DNA of 64,000 bases, taken from positions 1 to 64,000 of the forward strand of contig JASANC010005615.1 of assembly GCA_030248135.1 (NCBI GenBank). The letters run 5' to 3'. Below, piece by piece: positions 3,461-46,138 of this stretch. This DNA comes from Theristus sp. LFF4_11. Its lineage: Eukaryota; Nematoda; Chromadorea; Monhysterida; Xyalidae. The translations under genes and the position numbers were made by a program. Below the pieces are notes generated by a model. It made no database searches and was not told the DNA's origin. It worked only from the letters and a program-made list of their open reading frames with translations. Numbering within the stretch: position 1 is the stretch's first letter; every line of letters begins with the position of its first letter.

Positions 3461-5455
3461 CCCCATGAAATTTTTTCGCTCAAATTTGAAAGGAAAAACG
3501 CTAAATTTTGCTGCAAAATCTTTGAAATAACAATGAAGATGGTCAAGTTATCATATATTCAGCTTATATTATGGACTTTATAGACAAAAAATCATGATTT
3601 TCGAAAAAAAATTTAGGGTGTGCAGAAAATTTTGGGGGGGGGGGTGTCCGCCAGACAAAATTTCATGGGGGGGTGGGGGGGGTGTCGGCCAAATTTTCGA
3701 GGGGGGGGGGGTCCGAAGGGGGGGGGGGTGCACGGTTTTAGGGGGGGGGGGGGTGGCAAGGTGCCCCCCCCCCCCCCCCCCCACCCGACGGTCTCGGGTG
3801 CTCTGGGGGGGGTGTACCCCCCCCCCCCCCCCCCACGCCCACGGTACTGGCCCCCCCCCCCCTAGAACAACTATGGCCCTAGTGCAAATACACATACCGG
3901 CTTGAAATTCGATCAATTCTGATGATGTATCGCGACGGCAGGACACGAAACAGCAACCAGACAACGTAATGCTTGCAAAAACGGAGCAGCTCGGACGCTC
4001 AAATTTAGATTGCGAGCAGTACCGTGGGCGGGGGGGTGGGGGGGGGGGGGTACACCTAGGGTTAGGGGAAAAAAAAATCCGGATTTTTTTTTAATTAAAA
4101 TTTTTTTTTTTTTAATTTTTTTTTACAAGTTAGGTTCGTTCGAAGCGTCTCGTCGAGCTGAGTTCATCTAGACTATTTTCAGAACGATCCGGGAAACTAT
4201 AAGAGCGAAAATCGTGTTTTATTGAAATTATGTCCATTTCATAGAGGGAAAGTTGCATTTTCAACAGTAAAACAGGGCAATTTTTCACGTGTACTTGAAT
4301 ATTGAATCGTTCTTAGTGGTTCCTCTTTAGAAAATTACCAAAATTTGACTGTGTTCAAAAATTCCTGTTTGCTGTAGTAAGTCGGCAACCCCTGTCGACC
4401 CGGTCGCCCCCCCCCCCAAGACACTTACTTTCAGGTTCAACCAGCTGTGCTATCTGCCACATGGCGAGAGCCCACTCTTCAAATCATCGTATCGAAAACA
4501 CGTACCATGATTTCGCGATCACGTTGCGGGCAACTGACAGACGCAAGTTTAACACGTTAGTTTAGCTCAGCACGCAAGTTTTAACATGTGGCCATGTTAT
4601 CGGGTATCTGAAAAACGGTCGTGTGATGTGGTATTAACCAACATCTCCGCTCAAATTGTTTAACAATATATCGCACAACTCCATTGTAGACCTATAACAT
4701 ACGCCAATCAACAAGATATCATGTTCATCTCATGGCCTACCGACTGAAAAACATGTTCTAAGTTGCAAGAAAACGATTTCTGAAACGATATTTCAATTCA
4801 GTTAAGTCATTTCAACGCTAAAAATTGACTCTAGAAGTCATCCAAATCGAAAAACATGGAGTACGTCGGTCAAAATGACCAAATAATGACATTTACCTAA
4901 GCACACAAAGAAGTTGGGAAGAAAATTTGGTTTGAACTTTCAAAAAATTATGCCATAAATCGAATTTTCAGAGCAAAGTAGAAGAAAAAATTTTCAAATT
5001 TTTTTTTTAAGTTTGAAAAAAAAATCCAAATTTTTTTTAAAACAAAAAAAAAAATTAAAAAAAAATATTTTTTTTAAAGCCTTTAACCCTAGGTACACCC
5101 CCCCAGAGCACCAGAGACCGTCGGGTGGGGGGGGGTGGGGGGGGGGGGGGCACCGTGCCACCCCCCCCTAAAACCGGGCACCCCCCCCCCCCCCCATCGG
5201 CCCCCCCCCCTCTAAAATTTGGCCGACACCCCCCCCACACCCCCCATGAAATTTTGTCTGGCGGAGACCCCCCCCCCAAAAATTTTCTGCACACCCTAAA
5301 TTTTTTTCGAAAATCATGATTTTTTGTCCATAAAGTCTGTAATATAAGCTGAATATATGATAACTTGACCATCTTCATTGTAATTTCAAAGATTTTGCAG
5401 CTAAATTTAGCGTTTTTCCTTTAAAATTTTAGCGAAAAAATTTCATGGGGGGGGG
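3461..5455. mobile_element. Foldback element with about 390-bp inverted ends
   Basis: The left end (3461-3860) reads in from a CCCCCATGAAATTTTTTCGC boundary. It continues through ATCATGATTTTCGAAAAAA and GTCCGCCAGACAAAATTTCA with G-runs. The right end (about 5095-5455) is the reverse complement of the same text in mirrored order. The centre (3870-5090) has no convincing gene. A third copy of the arm is at 55005-55665. Long inverted ends with an unrelated middle suggest a foldback-type DNA element. Confidence 0.65.
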
Positions 5456-23310: not shown

Positions 23311-26300
23311 TCAGACCGCAAGCATCTCGTGCACGTGCAGCAACGCGCGCAGCGAGCGTGGCACCTGCTCCGGCGTCACCGTCTGCTTCTTTCGTGCACT
23401 TTCGTCCTCACCGTTAGCGGCCGCCACGAATCGCCGGTTGATCACCATGAGCTGGTGATGGAGACGGTGCCTCTCGACGGCCGCGTAGCAGGACGCGTGC
23501 ACGTCGTTGACCAGGATCGTGCCGGACTCCGTGATCGGGGCGAATGCGCCACGCGCACGAATGGGCGTGATCTGCAAAGCGATGCTGTTCTTCTTATTAC
23601 ACAGCGCGCACTTATAGTAGAACTCGGCAACATGTCCGAATAGCTGATTGGTTGTTAGTCAGGTGACACATGCATTCTATGCAAACCACACTCCGCCTCC
23701 ACAGTAATTCATGCACAGAATGCATGCATCCGGTCAGCTACAGTTGGATATGTTATAGAGAGGTTGTGTTGCACAATGTCAAACAGATCACCAACGCGCG
23801 TATAAAGGAATGATAAACTGTTTCGTGTATAAGTTCGCAGTTCAAGAACGTCAAAAGTTGAATTTCTAAGTTCTGAATGGAATTTTTCCGCGAGATCCTC
23901 TGGTGGATGGATCTGCTGTCGACTGTACTCTCTCCAACGGCATTCCCGTGCGATGCGGCTCGCCTGAACAATCCGATCCGGCCGCATACGTCCGTTGTCT
24001 GTCGTCGTCATCAGACAGTCGCCCGGTTTCGCGCGCAACGCAAACTCGGCGGCGTCCGTCAGCGCACGAATGTCGATGTTTCCGGCGAGTCTGAAAGCAT
24101 CGGTGATTCGGAAGAAACGTAAATCAACGCGATGCACTGTAGTGGGGGTTCATTCCAGTATTCCCAAAACGGCCGATTTTTTTTCTGCGTGTACCGTTGT
24201 TCATCGCAGTCGACGACTCGCGGCAGCAAGTGCTCGGGCGAGATCGCCAGCGTGCGCCCGGACTCCGTTCGCATCTGGAGGTACTCGTACTCTGTTTCGC
24301 CGGTTTTACGATCGTACCAGGACACGATGCGGCTGTATTGCTCACCAGTGTCGCCGTGGTCAGCGGCAATGGCAACCTTGGAGTGCAATGGGAATTGTGA
24401 AAAACAGTGTTCTCGGAAAAAAAGTGATGCTGAACAATAAAGAAAATGATATTATTTGGAAAATATTATCTTTTGTGGTTAATTGCGATGCGTTTGCGGA
24501 CATGTGGACAGAAATATCTAGATATTTGATATCAGGGACTTGGGTGGTCACTTATTAATGGGACATTCATGACGCAGTATAGTGACCGACCATCAGCTAT
24601 GTACATGTGTTTTTAACACAGCTACGCTTCATCACTAAATACTGCTCCATGAATGCCGCTTTACACGCAGAGTTCAACCTGAAAATACTCCTTTCGTGAA
24701 AAGAACAACTTATAAGACACATTCGCCATAACAACTTTATCTCCAATCTTCAATTGGTCCATTCTTGTTTCGACGCCGTCCGCAGTCCGCACGGTCTGGT
24801 CAGCCGCAAAGCAATTGAACAGTAACGGGTGGATGGGATTCTGGTGGTCGTTCAATGGGTGCACCAGCACGCTGTCCTGTTGGCAGACACCTGAATGCAA
24901 AATCGGGCCGTTGCTTTTTACTGAAAATACGGAACAAAAGAGGATGTTGACAAAAAGACACCACGACCCTGCTGTTGTCAAGAAGAGAACAAACACAGGC
25001 TGCCAACTTGTAAAAGTGGCTGTCTGATATGGCAACAGTTTGTCTTTTCCACTGAGAACCTGAGCGCAACTTTGGCACATTCGTTGCCGAAATTATGGTG
25101 GAATCGGAAACTCTGAGTCGTGTATCTCTACTCCCGGAAAAACAACGTGCGATTATGAACAAGAAGTCTACCAACCAAGGAACGGTTGCTGTTGTAGCGG
25201 ACACTGACAGATGCCACCAAGGCAGGTGCCTCCGCTGGCGCACGTTGTTCCAGCGGTGCACCGGCCGCCGAGTTGAGCTGGCGAACGCAATGGCTTTTTT
25301 TGTTCAAAGTTATTTGTGTGCTGATTTTTCATGTATCATCGCGTTATAAAAATACCCGTCAAAGAATAATGTGCTTACTATGTATGCTATCTACTTAGTA
25401 TGCACATACAAATAGTGCATCTTCGCATCCATTGAGCGTCCAGAAACAGGATGTTACAAAGTAAATCTTGTTTCGCCCAAAGTGTTGTTTGTTCAATAGC
25501 AACAACAACCACTCCACTGGTGTTCATTTGTTTTCCATAATCTCAAAAATCCTTATTAACAAAAAAAAACTTTTGAGAAAACCGTTTTCTGTCATACCTA
25601 AACAGACACTGGTGACGCCAGTGCCACTGATGGTGGCACCTGACGGGCATTGGCAGACGCTCTGGAAGCAGACGCTGCCGCCGAGGCATTGCGTGCCGGC
25701 CACCTGCTGCGTCGCGACAGTGCACGCGGCACCAGGTGGCGCTGGAAAAAAACGCCACAACGCGTGAAAAACGGTCAGTCAGTCAGTCCAGTCTGTTTTA
25801 TTCTGCAGTGCACGGCATGATACCAGAGAAGTGGTAAGACACCATACCATGAGCAGGCAAGCCAAAAGAAGTACAGACGTTTTCAGTTTTAAATCCTTCA
25901 ACTCGCACTTGCCACGACATCTCCCTACACCCTAGTCTCTCACAAATCCGACAAATCTCCCGCCATACACATAGTGGAACATTTCCTGTGTGCTCATGGC
26001 TGCTTTGTCAGCACTTCTTCTTCCTTTATGGTCGCATCTTTGCACATTTTGTTCTGTTCCCATTGGTGAGTCGGTTTTGTTGTGTACGGCATTTTTGTTG
26101 TTTCTCCGTTTATTGTGGCCATCAAAAACCAGAAAACCACCGACACGGGCGACCGATAGCGTGGCAAACCTCCGCAGTGCGTGGCGTTCAGGACGAGCGT
26201 GTTCGCGGGGCAGGTGCACTCAGTGCCGACCGTCGCGGCCGCACAGACCGCGCCGCCGAGACACGGCAACGTCACGACGGCGTTGTTCGCGTCCGTGTAC

Positions 26301-29300
26301 ACACACCGTTGGCCGAGCACCGCTGCAATGTGACTGACATCCCGGTTGCGACAAATATTCTGGTTTTTCCGGGCACAAAAATCAGAAACGCGGAAATAAA
26401 AAAACCAGTGCGAATGAACTTTTGGGTATCTTTTATTATTGTATTTTAGTCTCGAGGACTCAATGCACGCATAGATACAGTATGGCCGAATAAATGAGAC
26501 AGTCCATCAAGGCGGGATCAGTCGCAGACTAGGAGTCGTCTTTTTCAAAAATGCCAACATAATTCCCAATCATGTGTGCAAGGGAGAAAGAATGCACAGA
26601 ACAGCGCGGATAATCCATTGGTTTTCAAAAACGTGTCAAATTAGGCACGCAGTTTGGTTTCTGAACATCTTTTTTCTTTCATTCAAAATTCGCGCGCTCC
26701 TTGAACCCTGAAAAAAGCTGCCATGTTTAATCGGCCATACCGTACATAGGTAAACAAACAGTTCCATGCATGACGCAGCGATTCAAAATTGACAATCCGA
26801 GTCCCCTTAATAGGGCCGAGTCACTTTGGCGACTTTGAATCGCCACATAACGATTGAAATCCTTTCTACGTCTGCACACGCAATGAGCCTCTAAGAAACT
26901 AAAAATTGGTATTACATGTGAGAACTTTCCAGTTCTTTTGTTGATATCATGTCCCTGAAATAAGACAACGGAACTATGAAAACTCGCATGACCAACCAGC
27001 GCAATCGCCAGCCTGATTCTGATGATGCGAGTAGCACTGGCAGAGACCGTCGATGCACCAACGACCAGTTGGACACTGTGAGTGCAGCGTGCAGATTGGA
27101 AACTGCGCTGAAATTCACAAACGATACGAAAACAAAACGTTGACGTGGTAGCGTTTGCAGAAAATTCTAAAAAAAATATAGCTTTGGAATAGAAAGAAAT
27201 ATGATTAAAATGCATGGTTTTGAAATACAGGGACATTGGATTCGAAATGGCGTAAGAATGTTGCATATACTTATGCGATCAGGGTGTACGAATATAGCAC
27301 GAAATCCGATTTTTTTTGCGTGCAATCAAAAATGTTTTGAAACATTTTTTGAGGCACGCAAAAAATTGATTGATTGACAAAAACTGATTGACAGAATGCG
27401 AAATAATGGATCTGAATTGAAAATGGTTGCCATAGTCTGCACATCGCCAAAGCTTTTTTGTAACATTCGCGGGAGAACGACAATTTTAGGCCATTCGTAC
27501 GTCTATCAGTCAATGAACCATTTTTTCAGTGAGCACAAGCAAATTTTATACGAACGTGTGCAGACGTTGTTGACGACTGTATGCAGTGGAGGGCAGGTAC
27601 AGGTGGCGACCACACAGCTGCTGCCGCCGAGGCACACGCTGCCATCCGTGGTTGTGCTTGGCTGCGTACAGGGACCATTCGGATTCGCTGCAAAATTCCG
27701 TTTCTGTTTGGTAAACTTGTTCTCTTTGGGCAACAACACTTTGGGCAAACTTTCAAAGGCAAAGTAAAACTTTGCTTGGCTGGAAAACAATGTTCATTTG
27801 TAAAACACTTACCTACCCTCATAATCCCGATTGTCAGTCAGGTCGGGTGTAAAGAAACATTTTTGCTTTGACTGTTTTATGCACGTACTTTTTCACCAGG
27901 CTTCTATTAAAATCCACACACGTGTTGGCATCGATCACATGCTGTGTCCGAACTGCAAGAGCGTGCACTAACCGCCGCAGTGCGTGCCATTCACGACGAC
28001 GTAGTTGGCGATGCAGCCGCAACGGGTGCCGAACGTTTGCGTGTTCGCGCACACCGAACCGTGCAGGCACGTCACGGCGACCGTGGTGGCGCCCTGCTGC
28101 TGTGCGCACACCTGGCCGAGACGCGCTGCAAAAAACGCTGTGCAAGCAGACAAAGCGCTGAGATCGCCGGGAAAAACACGGCGAAGAATTGAGCGCGGAT
28201 TATCGGAAGTTGTTCCGACAGTAAACGGTAGACAAAAAAATGTTTTTTTAAACCCAAATAGATAAATAAAACTGGTGATCTACAACAATGTACAGTGGCG
28301 GCCAAAAGTGTTGGAACGCTGTGCGCGTGCGTGCGTGTGTGCGATGTATTGCGCGTGTGTTGCATCAGCCGTACAAACGCTATAAAGAAATCCCATGCTA
28401 TTTTTTTTGTTTTTTAGACCACTGAGTGTATTTAGTACACTATTCGCAGGTTTTTTTTCACTGAAGCACACATTTATTTGACAAATACCGAACATTACAA
28501 CACGCCTCCATTGCATATGACTGGTAGTAAAACTGATTCAAAATCATTGGCAAGACAACTATTCTATGAAGTATTAGCGTTTCCTTGTGTTTGAATTATC
28601 TAACAGACGTGTATTGCGTTCATGTTTCGGGTTCCAGTCGGGTTGTATTGTTTATTCCGCTATATTTTCTTGCCAAATAATTTTGAAACAGTTTTACTGC
28701 CAAATGGAGGTGTGTTGTAATGTTCGGTATTTGTCCAATAAATGTATGCTTCAGCAAAAAACCTGCGGATAGTTATTATTAGTGTATTAGATACACTCAG
28801 TAATCACAAAAACAAAAAAAAATTAGCATGGGATTCTTATAATAGCGTTTGTGAGCTTGATGATACACACGCGCAACACACGCGCACAAACGCGCGCAGC
28901 GTTCCAACACTTTTGGCCGCCACTGTACAAACAATGTCTGGTGTGTTTCAATGTTGGTGACCAGACCAATAAAATTCCAGCGTTTTTGGCTGTTTTCTAA
29001 ACAGACTGTGTGTAAACGACCAAAAACTCTTTCAGAATGTTTATGTCAGAAAGAGATGATATGTCTCCTTCTTACATCTTACAACAGCGTCCAGTATTTC
29101 TGAACGAAAAACATGCAAAACTCCAGCGTTTCAATTTGTCTGGTTGTCTTCTCTGTCGCTAAATCAACAGGTCAACCGAACAATAGCAAAGAAACAAAAG
29201 CAATACACCAAAACCGCTGCTCTAACCGGCGCATACGCCGTTGTTCAGTATGAGTCCGTTGACGCACTGACAGATGCCGCCGACACAGGCGCTGCCGCCC

Positions 29301-32300
29301 GTGCACACGACGCCGTCCTGGCAGTGTGCGCCGGGGCCACCTGCAGTCAACTTTTTTTCATTTTCTTCAATCGGTATGTAAACAGTTTGCAACTGGAAAC
29401 TGGTATATGCACTTAGTCGATACACGGGTTTCATCACCATACTTGCGAAACCGTAGTTTTGATCAATATTCCGAAACGCTCTCATCCCGTTCTGACGCCT
29501 TTCACACACACTCATGCCTGCGTCACACTGAACGACTGAGACAACTTCACGATTGTTTTGCGTCAGAATTTCCATGAACTTCTTGTATCCGCGGGGGGAA
29601 ATTACAAGTAACTTGAGGATGACAGGTGGAGGCCATATGTTTCTGTCCGTTCTCTTTTGCCGTGGTGTTCGACATAAATGACTACACTCGTTCGCTTCTC
29701 CACCGTAACACCCCTGCAAGCGAACACAACCCGACCGAACCAGTGCAAGCTGCATTGTTCGTTGTGGTGGTGCCAGTCGGGCAGGTGCACACGTTGTTGA
29801 CGCAGTTGCTGCCGAGCAGACACGTTGAGCCGGTCTGTGTTGCGCTCGCACTCACACACGCTTGACCGGGATTCGCTGTGGTTGGTGGGAAAACAACAGG
29901 ATTACATTGTTGTGGTGATGGTCGCTTTTCTTTCGTATATGCATCGCACCGATAAATATGGCGGTGTATGCGCTCTCAAGAAATGCGCTGATCATCATGT
30001 ATACAGCTTTCAGGTTTGGACATACCGTATTACCTCTAATAAACCCCCATGGGGGTTTATTTCTTCAGCGACTTCTGGGGGTGGGGGTTTATTTTGGGGG
30101 GGGGGCTTTATTTTTGGGGGGGGGTTTATTTGGAAACCATTTTTAGGAGTGGGCAAAATGGCAAAAATACCTTCCATGGCAGGAAGGAAGTCGCAGAAAC
30201 TTCTACTCTACATAGAAATTTCCTTTTACAACAGCCTTTTGTAATGAAATTACCATTAACTCATCCATTTGGGGCCTTTGGTAGCACAATTTCATCATTT
30301 TCACGGCAACCAGCCACTGAATTCGCTGGGTATGTGTTCCAAACAGGTTTCAATAATCCCCCATGGGGGATTATTTTTGGGGGGGGGATTATTTGGAAAC
30401 TTGTCAAGGGGGTGGGGGTTTATTTTGGGGGGGGGTTAATTTGGGGGGGGTTAATAGAGGTAATACGGTATGATTTCTTCACGTGAAAACTTGCCTGAAA
30501 AGGTACACATCGAAGTGACGTTCTATGGTGCCATAAAAAACGGATATGCGTGCCGTCAGCAAGCAAATGACGTCAGTCCGCTTAGACATGTTCCACTAAA
30601 TAGGCTATATACTTTTGGAAAGACACACTTTGCATGTGCATTTTGAAAGACGTGTTATTCAAGATTCAACAACCAAAACAGAGAAAAAGAAAAAGTGAGA
30701 CGCCAACGAACAGACGCATTGGTCGTTCTGTGCGACCATGGGCGCGTCGCACGTGCACTTCACGTTCTGACCAGCGGGGCATTTCGAGCCGCCCGGACAG
30801 CCGATCACAATGTCCCCGTTGGCTGCATCCTTAGTGCGACACATCTGGCCGATATTCACGGCTGGAATACAAAATAATGATCAAGCCATCAGTCTGCACT
30901 GACCAAGATGATCAGAAATTGTTTACTGATTATTAAAAGTTGCGTCCCCACATTTTGTGAACTCGGATCACTTTGCCAATTTTTAATTCCCGCTTCATGC
31001 ATGAAACTGTTTTTCTATCTATGCGCGCACTGAGTCTCAGGACCAAAAGAACAGTTCATAGTTATGCAGATATATTTTCCAGAAGCAAGAAAAACGAAGT
31101 ACAAATTGTATAAATAGTAAGTTTGGGTTGATAACGCACGCACGCTACAAAATTTACCATTTCCGTTTCCGTTTCCATTTTCATTTACCGTTTCCGTTTC
31201 AGAATTTTTTTATCGAAAATCTGAAATGAGTAACTGACCATTTTGGGAGCACCCGACGCACCGTAGAAAAGTGCAGGAACGAAAACTTTTGGAAACGGAA
31301 ACGGAAACTGAAATGGACATTTTTTTAAATTTAAAAAAGCGCCGTGAAGCCGCGTTTGTTTAGTCTGACAGTATTTCCAGTAGTTTCGTCTGCAACAATC
31401 AGCTGTGTCAGTATTATCTTTTGGTATGGTTCCAATCCGAGACTCAATGCGCACATAGAGACCGGTAAATGTTTCATGAATGCGCGGAAATTCAAAGTTC
31501 GTAAAGTGATCCGAGTCCCCAAAATACATAGGACCGGATCACTGTGGCCTTTGTTTTGAAGTGCCACATAACGATTGAAACTAAAGTTTCCTTTCCACGT
31601 CTGCGGTCTGCGTTCAGTCGCAGAACATTAAAACATTAACAGTACATAGTTCGCTGACGACATGCGCCGTGACCGACCAGTGCAGCGGGCGCCTATCTGC
31701 GTTTGCGGGCGGTTGTCGAAGCGCGCCGGCACACAGCTGCATCGCTTCTCCCCGTTCACGTCTGTACAAATCGCGCCACTGATCACGGTGCAATCGTCTC
31801 GCGTGTTTACCGTGCCGGCGCACGTGTCTCCGATGGGCTTATGATCTGCAAACAACAAAACGACAATGATTTATGTATTCGCAGTCACCACCGACGCTTC
31901 GCTAGAGATAATGTGATCTAATTACGTCTGCTGATCATTTGTAATTAGGCAATTTAGCCACTAATTATGGAAGTTCTCGCCTATATACAAACGGTGATGT
32001 CTTTTTCTCTGGTGTTCTGAAATCGACATTAAAGTTATCGCGCAACATCGGCACATCGTTTGTCTAGCTTCGGTCGCGCATTTATTCGCACTCGACCGAA
32101 TTGTGCAGTCGAACTGCTGCAGATCACAGGGCAATATCAGCTCATTCGCTGCTTTGGTCCTCCTGTCTTGCGTAGCTGCTCGATGCGCAGCCAATCAGCG
32201 TAACGCAGATTGAAATGTCAGATGGCACAAATCATGCAAACTGCTTCACACATGCCAACTCACTTGCGTGACTGCGTTCAATAACAGCCACGATCAGTAG

Positions 32301-32342
32301 CAGTAGCACTTTTGGTGTGGCCGCAGAGCACGACAGTGGCAT
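23311..32342 (-). CDS. Secreted multi-EB-module protein with C-terminal hedgehog-type Hint domain
   Basis: Fifteen exons, all junctions phase-consistent. Signal peptide exon 32264-32342 (MPLSCSAATPKVLLLLIVAV). Ten cysteine-module exons: 31678-31845, 30712-30861, 29741-29875, 29227-29340, 27973-28125, 27556-27687, 26997-27107, 26170-26322, 25598-25741 and 25176-25277. Hint exons: 24721-24920, 24195-24376, 23970-24090 and 23311-23571. Total about 735 residues. Every module exon starts and ends in phase 1 and has the EB-like spacing, for example GSVCLGGSSCVVATCTCP and GSACVGGICQCVNG. Family knowledge: Hint domains of hedgehog and nematode hedgehog-related proteins cleave themselves and attach cholesterol to the N-terminal part. 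By inference the EB array would be the released, possibly lipid-modified ligand. Most donors are GTTNGT. The last exon may instead be spliced at a GTGAGG after NRRFVAAAN. Several MITEs sit in the introns. Confidence 0.85.
23629..23764. mobile_element. Palindromic MITE family P, copy 2 (EB-Hint intron)
   Basis: AACATGTCCGAATAGCTGATTGGTTG at the left and CAGCTACAGTTGGATATGTTATAGAG at the right are a decayed inverted pair related to 18528-18672. The centre again has ATGCATTCTATGCAAACC and AATGCATGCATC. It lies between Hint exons 23571 and 23970. Confidence 0.6.
24557..24659. mobile_element. MITE family Q, copy 1 (EB-Hint intron)
   Basis: Ends GGACATTCATGACGCAGTAT and its inverse ACTGCTCCATGAATGCC frame about 100 bp containing AACACAGCTACGC. 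The second copy is at 46867-46962. It lies in the intron between Hint exons 1 and 2. Confidence 0.7.
26474..26749 (+). mobile_element. Mariner-like MITE family M, best-preserved copy
   Basis: Complete 276-bp unit from TACAGTATGGCCGAATAAAT to TAATCGGCCATACCGTACA, the clearest example of the family's terminal inverted repeat. It lies in the intron between module exons 26322 and 26997 of the EB-Hint gene. Confidence 0.85.
26783..26895. repeat. Dispersed repeat R (also about 12020-12115, 30960-31045, 31505-31630)
   Basis: A common block with CCGAGTC...CACTTTGGCGA...GCCACATAACGATTGAAA...ACGTCTGC recurs at the listed positions with heavy divergence. All copies lie in introns of the MTTP or EB-Hint genes. 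No clear termini, so the element class is unknown. Confidence 0.5.
28291..28927. mobile_element. Tc1-like MITE with long inverted arms
   Basis: TACAGTGGCGGCCAAAAGTG at the left is repeated perfectly in inverse at the right, and the first 30 or so bases match exactly. Pairing continues loosely for over 200 bp per arm, for example AATACCGAACATTACAACAC and its inverse near 28700. TA flanks each end, and the CAGTGGCGGCCAAAA terminus is typical of Tc1-family transposons. No transposase. It lies in the EB-Hint intron between exons 28125 and 29227. Confidence 0.88.
30023..30470. mobile_element. G-run MITE family G, copy 1 (EB-Hint intron)
   Basis: Terminal inverted repeat TACCGTATTACC...AATAAACCCCC / GGGGGTTAATAGAGGTAATACGGTA, with TA at both outer ends. 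Internal palindromes CCCCCATGGGGG sit at each shoulder with long G-runs. The second copy, carrying a nested element, is at 32460-33135. Confidence 0.85.
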
Positions 32343-32459
32343 TGTTGGCAAAAATTGATCAGCAGCACCAATTTGTATGCGCTGTTCGTTTTTAAAAAAT
32401 AACGGCTGATAAATAAATACCTAGCTGATTTTGCATCCTTCTATGTTCAATAATGCGTA

Positions 32460-33135
32460 TACCGTATTACCCCCGATAAACCCCATGGGGGATTAATACG
32501 TCAGCGACTTTTAGAGGTGGGGGTTTATTAGTGGGGGGGGGATTATTGGGGGGGGGATTATTGGTGGGGGGGGGGCTTTATTTACAAACAAATTCTAGGG
32601 GTAATGGGGCTTATTGAAAAATGGCAAAAATACCTTGCATGGCAGGCAAGAAAGTCGCAGAAACTTCTACTTTTCACAGAGATTTCCTTTTGTAACAGCC
32701 TTTTGTAATGAAATTACCATTAACTCATCCCTTTGGGGCCTTTGGTACAGTATGGCCGAATAAATGAGGCAGTCCATCAAGGCGGGATCAGCCGCAGACT
32801 AGGAGTTGTCTTTTTCAAAAAAGCCAACGTAATTCCCAATCATGTGTACAAGGGATAAAGAATGAACAGAATAGCGCGGATAATCCATTAGTTTAAAAAA
32901 ACGCGTCAAATTTGGCACACAATTCAGTTTATGAGGTCGTTTTTTTTTTTTTTTAAAGGGTTTTGGAAAAAGCTGGTTCGGCGTAGCACAATTTCACCAA
33001 TGTCACTGCATAGTGCATTCAGCCACTGGATTATTTGTGGGGGGGGGGGGAATTATTCGGAAACTTGTCGTGGGGGTGGGGGTTTATTGGTGGGGGGATT
33101 AATGGTTGGGGGGGTTTAATGGGGGTAATACGGTA
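32460..33135. mobile_element. G-run MITE family G, copy 2 with a nested family M MITE
   Basis: Same TACCGTATTACC / GGTAATACGGTA ends and G-run shoulders as 30023-30470. The extra length is a family M element at 32745-32991 inserted at a TA. Copy 1 reads CTTTGGTAGCACAATTTCA straight through, whereas copy 2 reads CTTTGGTA, then the MITE, then TAGCACAATTTCA. It lies just upstream of the EB-Hint start codon. Confidence 0.85.
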
Positions 33136-43826: not shown

Positions 43827-46138
43827 ATGCCGAGCTTTCGCGTTAACCTGCAGTGGGCCTCGATAAGCGAGGTTATTCCGAATCTGTTCATTTCCGGCGT
43901 TACCGCTCTGAAGCCAGCCGAACTGAGAGCGCTGAATGTTCGCCTGATCATCAACGCCACGTCCGAAGTGCCGAACATGCGAATGCAGGTACGGTCATAG
44001 TTTGGACACCGTGCACTTTGTTGTGTGCACAGTCACCAACCATTCATACACCACGTATACATGCGATATTAAAGAAGCGCGCATGGCAGCACCGGTGTGC
44101 GTGCCTGTGTGTTTGTTTGTGACTGTGCAACATTACTGTGTTAGAGGGATTATCTTCAGTAGTCCAGCCAGGATTATGAAAGTCTCTTAACTTTATTCAA
44201 CGCGCAGGCTGAGCAAAATAATTCCACAAAAAGTTCAATATGCATATTTTGTTTTGCTTCATCAGACCAGTGCTCTGAGTTCTCCGACCATCTCTTCTCA
44301 CTTCTCAGCTATCCGCAACAAACACACTGGCGCAGTTGAAAATTGCAGTATGCGCATGCCAGGGTGTTTGTTTGTGGCGGTGTGCGAAGGAGCATAAATG
44401 AAATCAAAGTCAATGATGTTTTGCCAGTTCCAAATTATTATCTTTTTGTGAACATCGTGAACTTTCAGGATGTTGAGCGTGTGAAACTTTGGGTGGATGA
44501 CGTTGAAGACGCTGACATAATGCAGCACTTTGATCTGGTCTTGCCGCACATTCACACCGCGTTGCAGGTACACAATTGTTGTTGCTGTTGTTTTCCATGG
44601 TTTTCGAGGTTTTGAACAAATACTTAGTACGTCAATTACACTGTATTGCTGAGAAAATATTGCTACTGAACTTGCTACTGAGTCTGCTACTAGACAAAAT
44701 TTTGCGCCGTTATACCAGGGGAAGTTTCCACACTGGGTACATATAACACGCGTAGTTAATAAAACACTTTCAACTCTGGAAAAATAGTGGTAAAGAAACA
44801 ACATTTTCGCTGTAAAAACAGCAGGAGCACTCGATGCACCATTACGGCTTTAGACAACATTTAAACAGAGATTCGCCTAAACTGAAAGTTTTAGCTGCGG
44901 CGTAATATTAAAAAAATGAAAAACGATTCGAACAAAATACTGCAAAAACTTCGTTAATATTAAAAACTAAAAATAAAAATACAAAATAATAAAACAGGAT
45001 GACTGTCGTGTGTTGGTGCACTGTGTCGCCGGCGTCAGCCGCTCGGCCACAATCTGCCTCGCCTACTTGACCCGCTACCACTGTAAAACATTACGCGACG
45101 CCTATTGGCTGATGTGCACGCAGCGGCCGATGGTGCGACCGAATCTCGGCTTCTGGCGTCAGCTGATCGCGTACGAACAATTGGCGACCGGGAAGCCGTC
45201 GAGTGTCAGACTCGTCTGGACGACAACGCCGCATCCGCAGAACAGTCAGCAGTGCTCGAATAAAGAGCGGTCATCGACATCATCAACTACATCAACCACC
45301 ACAGAACATCAGGACAATGATGATGATGATGACATCGAGTCACATCAACACCATCAGCAGCACGATTGTGCGCTGTTGCCGGACGTTTATCTGCCAGCCG
45401 CTCTGCAACGACGAGACTCGGTCAGTTCTCGGCTGAGAAAGTTCGGTTTTTTTTGTTTTGTTCGTATAAAAACTGCTGTTCGCATAAAAAACGGCATGCT
45501 TTTGTGTCTCTTGAGAGCAGTTTGTAAACAAAATTCTTGGGCGTGGCCCGCAAATATTTTCAAAACAGTTTTTGGTTATCTGAAATTTTGGAACGGTCCC
45601 GGATAACAATGACTCATCTGGTGCTTGAAAGAGATAGAAAATCGCTGTTTTGCGACATGCAGACCACCCGGGTCGGGGTGTGCAGATTGGTTGTATATTT
45701 TTGAATATGATGCACTTATTGGTCGCATATCAACAACAATGATGCAGCCAATCAGTGTAATGAAATAACACATTCAAACTGCGTATTATTCAAAGATTTG
45801 AATCGTACATGCCGACTGGCTGGTAGGTGGTAACACCAATCAGCGAGCTCAGTTTGAAAGCCCCAATATATGAGTTAAAAATTTGTACATGTATTTGCCT
45901 TTTCACGGTGCAGATTTTCAAACCCAAACAATCCAGATACAATGCTGTGCTGTCCAATTTTCAGGGTTCACCCAGTCCGGAAGACCATCAAAAGGAGAAC
46001 GGCACCACCCTGCCGTACGTTCTCGAGGGTCGTGAGCGGCAGTTATCCGGACAGAAGGCGAAATTTGTGCCGATTTTAGCGCCGCTGCCCGAGACGCATG
46101 CCGACTCGCAAACGGACATGAATGCTGCTGCGTCATGA
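43827..46138 (+). CDS. Atypical dual-specificity protein phosphatase
   Basis: Four exons, all phase 0: 43827-43988, 44469-44567, 44998-45420 and 45914-46138, giving 302 residues. The catalytic fold spans residues 8 to about 160: SEVIPNLFISGVTALKPAEL, then LIINATSEVPN. WVDDVEDADIMQHFD carries the likely general-acid Asp. The P-loop is VHCVAGVSRSATICLAYL, with the catalytic Cys and Arg in HCxxGxSRS. The TLRDAYWLMCTQRPMVRPN helix follows. The tail is Ser/Thr/Asp/His-rich and low complexity. There is no MAPK-docking rhodanese domain, so it belongs with the small atypical DUSPs (DUSP14/18/21-like). These remove phosphate from Tyr and Ser/Thr. The exact orthologue is unclear. Confidence 0.88.

Follow-up and report, generated by a model that had tools for sequence, protein, structure and literature searches.

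A predicted self-processing secreted protein joining an array of EB modules to a nematode-type Hint domain in Theristus

In the accessible sections of the Buerglin 2008 survey (PMC2362128), nematode Hog proteins have N-terminal regions of several kinds, among them Wart, Ground, Qua, Enop, Thr-rich and short ones, and two extra conserved Cys residues in the central Hog region define the Nema-Hog type. These nematode Hedgehog-related Hog proteins, especially those of Enoplea with the six-Cys 'Enop' motif, are the closest known relatives of the gene described here. It lies in a 64,000-nucleotide stretch of DNA (the window; positions 1 to 64,000 of the forward strand of contig JASANC010005615.1, assembly GCA_030248135.1) from the nematode Theristus sp. 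LFF4_11, where ten Cys-rich modules of EB type precede a Hint domain on the minus strand. We read it as one gene for a secreted self-processing precursor, made of an EB array and a nematode-type Hint domain, that belongs to a family formed by exon shuffling and acts as a matrix or cuticle component or as a ligand. For this reading as a whole we estimate a probability of roughly 0.82.

Minus-strand positions 32342-23311 form a single open spliced frame of 15 exons and 731 codons, which runs from an ATG at 32342 to a TGA at 23311 without an internal stop. A pseudogene was ruled out, as the 15 exons hold neither a stop nor a frame break. Scored against the curated Pfam cut-offs (EB 24.3 bits, Hint 29.7 bits), the spliced protein reached 79.6 bits for EB and 132.5 bits for Hint. 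Exon 1 (32264..32342; this and all following exons on the minus strand) carries the start codon, which has no other support, and a predicted signal peptide (MPLSCSAATPKVLLLLIVAVIERSHA) with a 19-mer hydropathy peak of 2.14, and it leaves in phase 1. Exons 2-11 each encode a module; an AG acceptor and a GT donor were present in 10/10 cases, and every module exon has a length divisible by three and is in phase 1 at both ends. A first-pass annotation had proposed a signal peptide, ten Cys modules and a Hint domain in one phase-consistent gene, and the open frame, the phases and the profile search of the protein for EB and Hint all agree with it. Its ten successive modules hold as ten module exons, but the exon of the last module has only five Cys, the sixth lying on the first Hint exon.

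The array has a regular internal order. Exon 2 (31678..31845) encodes module m1, a six-Cys cap to which the cap module of paralogue L019 is most similar. Behind this cap, which is a different module, pairwise scores place modules m2-m10 in three A-B-C triplets. Type A comprises m2 (exon 3, 30712..30861), m5 (exon 6, 27973..28125) and m8 (exon 9, 26170..26322); type B comprises m3 (exon 4, 29741..29875), m6 (exon 7, 27556..27687) and m9 (exon 10, 25598..25741); type C comprises m4 (exon 5, 29227..29340), m7 (exon 8, 26997..27107) and m10 (exon 11, 25176..25277). Mean similarity between modules was 75.2 at lags 3 and 6 and 41.9 to 46.2 at lags 1, 2, 4 and 5, and the grouping (m2,m5,m8), (m3,m6,m9), (m4,m7,m10) scored highest among all 280 possible splits. 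Cys loop lengths recur with the same three-module period, and m5 and m8 form a repeat at the DNA level (73% alike). Searching the 64-kb window for phase-1/1 exons with EB Cys spacing gave nine matches, every one of them a same-strand exon of this gene; m10, with five Cys on its own exon, escapes the pattern. Single modules scored above the EB cut-off for m4 (37.4 bits), m10 (29.8 bits), m9 (25.3 bits) and m7 (24.4 bits). Modules m1-m3 lay outside the single-module scans and, like m5, m6 and m8, are taken as EB modules because of their six-Cys pattern and their likeness to the other modules.

The Hint part, a clear one as first annotated, was corrected to four exons (24920-24736, 24376-24195, 24090-23964 and 23571-23311). 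Exon 12, entered in phase 1 and left in phase 0, holds the end of m10, a linker, the predicted scissile bond Asn516-Cys517 (Cys codon 24813-24811) and the start of Hint, which Pfam matches from residue 516. Exon 13, placed by the spliced frame and alignments, contributes the Asp equivalent to Drosophila Asp303 (codon 24313-24311) and an S-x-x-H motif; exon 14 continues the Hint domain; and exon 15 supplies its end with the SCYA Cys, the tail region and the TGA stop, the open reading frame (ORF) that holds it scoring 57.4 bits for Hint. Comparison with paralogues set the ends of exon 12 (24736) and exon 14 (23964), which raised the Hint score from 118.1 bits with the first exon ends to 132.5 bits; the earlier version of the protein had 734 amino acids. 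The donor of exon 14 is probably GC (CAG followed by GCGAGC), by analogy with paralogue L017, which has a GC donor (GAA followed by GCAAGT, at 4796) at the equivalent place, the other printed paralogue boundaries being GT. A GT donor six bases earlier (23970) would also preserve the frame. The window Hint has an extra intron of 104 bases that the paralogues compared do not share.

Read by itself, the window does not decide between one gene and two, and it is the genome sequence that argues for one. We scanned the whole assembly (159 Mb, 3744 contigs) and obtained at least 120 Hint matches, with 150 of 154 candidates scored, and at least 142 EB matches, with 150 of 494 candidates scored. The Hint matches fall into 65 loci (66 after one was split), a count that is not one of distinct genes, as some loci, such as those on C2770 and C2864, look like haplotype copies. 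At 8/65 Hint loci, against 0.26 expected, at least one EB match lay on the same strand no more than 9 kb upstream, and none lay antisense. At three Hint loci, same-strand EB matches also occurred on the downstream side; these are part of the following gene in a cluster or of the end of C1868. Hint loci stand in tandem on C1868 (five) and C1451 (three).

A survey of EB-pattern exons covered 26 of the 66 Hint loci, window included, over 244,721 bases. At least one phase-1/1 EB-pattern exon was present upstream on the same strand at 20/26 loci; rather than a lone oddity, the gene is a member of a family in its own genome. Across the survey, 61/64 EB-pattern exons preceded a Hint encoded in the same orientation and none lay antisense; the remaining three follow the final Hint of contig C1868, at its 3' end and in the same orientation. 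When the 244,721 bases were shuffled five times in 200-base blocks, no EB-pattern exon arose. Chance Cys-rich frames were ruled out by these empty shuffles and by the lack of antisense matches. Ten of the 26 loci had been picked through a known EB match on their contig (the window, three on C1868, two on C1451, and one each on C1217, C3508, C2770 and C2864), and modules were found at nine of them; the other 16 loci had modules in 11 cases. The five without were C1290, C1659, C462, C74 and C840, with only 1.5 kb of upstream sequence for C462, and the single module at C1200 is separated by 2.9 kb from the Hint there and is perhaps not part of that gene.

How the Hint exons begin bears on whether the EB array and the Hog part come from two adjoining genes that were wrongly read as one. 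In the window the Hint exon ORF has an in-frame ATG and a hydrophobic stretch read from the intron, and unspliced m10 runs in frame into a stop soon after exon 11. Both features count against the predicted single gene; in the part consulted of a study of helminth annotation, moreover, gene-fusion artefacts are widespread and helminth-specific fusion genes are often artefacts (PMC12964723). The paralogues point the other way. At 13/17 module-associated paralogue loci no in-frame ATG precedes the Hint Cys in its ORF, and these Hint exons must therefore be spliced on from upstream; the ORFs with an in-frame ATG are those of L019, L020, L026 and L037. In L026 a single ORF runs uninterrupted through a six-Cys module into the beginning of Hint (EB 19.7 and Hint 14.7 bits for the pieces, both below cut-off), and in L022 and L023 a four-Cys half module, where Pfam does not call EB, shares an ORF with the Hint Cys. 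Two genes would also have to accommodate the module-then-Hint order that recurs across the surveyed loci, the sixth Cys of m10 on the Hint exon, the collinear L019, and a gap between exons 11 and 12 of just 255 bases, the second shortest intron of the gene. Neither AATAAA nor ATTAAA occurs in this gap, which is undiagnostic, since both are also absent from the 610 bases after the Hint stop. Two separate genes were rejected on the paralogue evidence, and we regard them as very improbable; the genomic evidence likewise argues against a fusion artefact. The early call of a single gene is thereby strengthened.

Array length varies among the paralogues. In L019 the cap is followed by six modules, interpreted as two triplets, a count that leaves out the upstream-most candidate exon of this locus (3607-3729). 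Its modules n1-n6 each match window modules m1-m6 best and in order, which 0/20,000 random assignments equalled, and its last module matches m4 best. Four modules precede Hint in L021a, L026 and L027; L017, L035, L020 and L024 have shorter arrays that resist a clean assignment to types A, B and C. In 7/9 paralogues compared by module type, all but L024 and L022, the final full module ahead of Hint is a short one of type C. L024 is compact, with leader, three modules and Hint in about 2.1 kb, and its protein scored 148.2 bits for Hint and 21.7 bits for EB, the latter below cut-off; the L035 protein reached 149.6 and 36.1 bits.

Protein-level constraint was seen among the closer paralogues. Five Hint pairs gave nonsynonymous divergence (dN) of 0.10-0.21 and synonymous divergence (dS) of 0.35-0.72. 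Pooled modules of L026 and L027 gave dN 0.30 and dS 0.73; the fourth module of the two is near-identical (dN 0.024, dS 0.041), and saturation is reached or approached in the first two. Between the window gene and L019, dN was 0.44 and dS 1.5 over m1-m6, and dN was 0.57 with saturated dS over Hint. In every pair compared where dS could be computed, dN was lower than dS.

Other observations touch the wider family. The Hint domains of L001 (contig C287) and L002 (C3434) lie largely in one exon and have the top single-stretch Hint scores in the genome (118.5 and 117.9 bits); about 1.1 kb upstream of each, on the same strand, is one candidate EB-like six-Cys stretch. Contigs C3175, C2161, C3197 and C1823 carry EB arrays with no Hint match listed, one of them a single open frame of 1225 amino acids, and these are perhaps EB-only relatives. 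C. elegans has wart-only and ground-only genes. Beyond the genome, a protein homologue search with the window Hint as query found none at E <= 0.001 among 1348 candidates, and an alignment-based search that scored 7994 proteins gave one match (P0001, 651 amino acids), for which Pfam lists only Hint; neither search returned a nematode Hog protein.

In sequence, the Hint part corresponds to the Drosophila Hedgehog autoprocessing domain of known structure (PDB 1at0 and 6td6). The nucleophile Cys517, the Asp equivalent to Drosophila Asp303, the motif His and the SCYA Cys are all kept. An extra Cys pair in the central Hog region (VVDC and PGDC) is present in the window and in 15/15 aligned paralogues and absent from Drosophila Hh, and because of this pair we assign the Hint part to the nematode Hedgehog-related kind. 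No Hedge (HH_signal) domain was matched by Pfam in the spliced protein, and a genome search for HH_signal was empty, though its control search likewise gave no match. The Pfam scan of the spliced protein also lacked a Ground-like domain (PF04155) and named only EB and Hint, with no dedicated Wart or Qua model run; an NCBIfam scan had no match. Elsewhere in the genome, 13 Ground-like matches (11 above cut-off) were found on C610, C2116, C1960, C1418, C1758, C2505 and C2952; the portion of Buerglin 2008 consulted states that Ground-like was not found in Trichinella spiralis or in Enoplea expressed sequence tags (PMC2362128). Taken with the central Cys pair, the Ground-like matches point to a nematode host.

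With these domains, we propose that the gene would be translated as a secreted precursor in which a short linker connects the array (cap and three A-B-C triplets), itself preceded by a signal peptide, to a nematode-type Hog domain. When the precursor has folded in the secretory pathway, Hint would perform an N-to-S acyl shift at Asn516-Cys517, and hydrolysis or transfer to a sterol would free the disulfide-locked array. The predicted released part, residues 27-516, contains 60 Cys, exactly ten times six, because the sixth Cys of m10 is encoded on exon 12. Once freed, the array would act outside the cell, most probably as a component of apical matrix or cuticle, or as a short-range ligand. Nematode Hedgehog-related proteins are generally linked to apical matrix or cuticle, and we infer the matrix or cuticle role from this link. 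The family would have arisen as phase-1 modules were shuffled as exons and tandemly duplicated ahead of Hint.

Of this proposal, the domains, the open frame and its phases, the gene family and the constraint seen in closer paralogues are directly observed; cleavage, the adduct and the site of action are inferred. Several observations weigh against it. Module m6 alone scored below the EB cut-off (19.5 bits), and the ORFs holding m5 and m8 were not called as EB. The estimate of selection on the window gene itself is rough, because dS against L019 is saturated or near saturation. In the Hint domain, the Thr of the T-x-x-H motif is Ser in the window, a conservative change; the same position is Ser in 13, Ala in one and Thr in one of 15 aligned paralogues. 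Preceding the nucleophile, the window has Asn, and 17 module-associated paralogues have Ile, Val, Pro or Phe, never Gly; according to the accessible text of PMC7906309, the Hedgehog scissile bond is Gly-Cys (G197-C198 in human SHH). Finally, the last 35 positions of Pfam Hint leave the window tail unmatched (the match spans 12-178 of 213). In paralogues L024 and L035 the Hint match reaches position 211, and the window tail aligns to paralogue tails.

Self-cleavage before Cys517 is, on the retained active site, a likely outcome, and the nature of the released product is harder to call. If Hint served as a maturation protease, cleaving itself hydrolytically to leave a free EB array without donating a sterol, then Ser in place of Thr, Asn in place of Gly and the diverged tail would fit; moreover, whether the Hog domains of C. 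elegans Hedgehog-related proteins add cholesterol is described as unclear in the consulted part of Buerglin 2008 (PMC2362128). Set against hydrolysis is the residue at the Asp303 position. In Hedgehog, Asp303 is required for the sterol step and dispensable for the acyl shift, according to the available parts of PMC4695875 and PMC9163320, and the window copy has this Asp. It is alone in doing so, as His was found in 25/25 other Hint loci scored (of 26 examined, only C1290 was unscorable). His need not abolish the sterol step: the engineered D303H (Asp303His) form is reported, in the part of PMC9163320 consulted, to retain structure and activity and to accept more sterols. A tail with two conserved blocks after Hint in the 15 aligned paralogues also speaks against hydrolysis as the sole function. 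We place the odds of release by hydrolysis alone a little short of even, and a sterol adduct on the released array is a possibility that we rate slightly lower again.

Could the Hint domain instead be a dead remnant, and the protein be used as an unprocessed secreted array? The extra 104-base intron and the probable GC donor would suit such decay. The catalytic Cys, the Asp, the His and the SCYA Cys are nevertheless retained, the whole Hint is open, and Hint shows dN below dS in paralogue pairs (for example 0.10 vs 0.36), all of which make a dead Hint unlikely. Our preferred reading thus remains a Hint domain that processes its own precursor. Extending it to a genome-wide class, in which EB arrays of variable length, with triplets in the longer ones, would be self-released and sterol-capped, and in which the split between His and Asp as general base might let different arrays carry different sterols, is tentative, and we hold it to be rather doubtful.

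The surroundings of the gene hold further features. Intron 5 contains an element (28289-28929) that resembles a non-autonomous DNA transposon: its 53-base ends are inverted (92% complementary), and other, nested inverted repeats accompany them. Introns and the upstream region also hold dispersed repeats that carry poly-G/C tracts, together with a 212-base repeat (87% alike) (30022-30470, 32459-32957, 33018-33135 and 26476-26687). A dual-specificity phosphatase exon lies at 44977-45603 (Pfam DSPc, 77 bits), and Rfam and tRNA scans of the window had no match.

Compared with known systems, the protein resembles Hedgehog (Drosophila Hh, Shh) in its Hint fold, as judged from sequence, and in having the catalytic Cys, Asp and His plus the SCYA Cys; unlike Hedgehog, it has no Hedge domain, has Asn rather than Gly before the nucleophile and has Ser for Thr. 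With EB-module proteins (Pfam PF01683) it shares the six-Cys spacing and a whole-protein score above cut-off. The other comparisons draw on the sections of Buerglin 2008 at hand (PMC2362128). Nema-Hog proteins (warthog, groundhog, quahog) share with the window protein a signal peptide, a distinct N-terminal part, a C-terminal Hog and the extra central Cys pair, and they too form gene families, some of whose members have no Hog. The window N-terminus differs from theirs in being a multi-module EB array on symmetric phase-1 exons rather than Wart, Ground or Qua. XC Thog and choanoflagellate Hoglet have a Thr-rich stretch before Hog that resembles the Thr-Pro linkers of several paralogues; the window linker, in contrast, is not Thr-rich, and those sections mention no EB modules for the two proteins.

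Closest are the Enop-hog proteins (Trichinella Ts Xhog1 and Xhog2, Xiphinema XC Xhog5), which place a six-Cys region upstream of a Nema-Hog, so that the initial view of an EB array joined to Hint as without precedent does not quite hold (PMC2362128). Going by the description in those sections, Enop-hog proteins have one such motif, whereas here up to ten modules stand in triplets. The Enop motif may well be a single EB-like module, and if it is, the EB-Hint genes would be its many-module relatives. Among 5.39 million open papers, with no preprint server and few subscription papers covered, we found no report that couples EB modules with a Hint or Hog domain, and database annotation of the pair could exist.

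The EB-Hint architecture is genuine and represents a little-known route to secreted proteins that are predicted to process themselves. It indicates that a self-processing tail can be attached to a long repetitive extracellular array, and, since His-type and Asp-type general bases occur naturally within one animal, the sterol question for nematode Hog domains becomes directly testable. In the sections consulted, Buerglin 2008 attributes the varied N-termini of nematode Hog proteins mostly to divergence and not to the gain of new domains (PMC2362128). In contrast, a known module family here stands before Hog as symmetric phase-1 exons at 20/26 loci, the signature of domain gain and shuffling.

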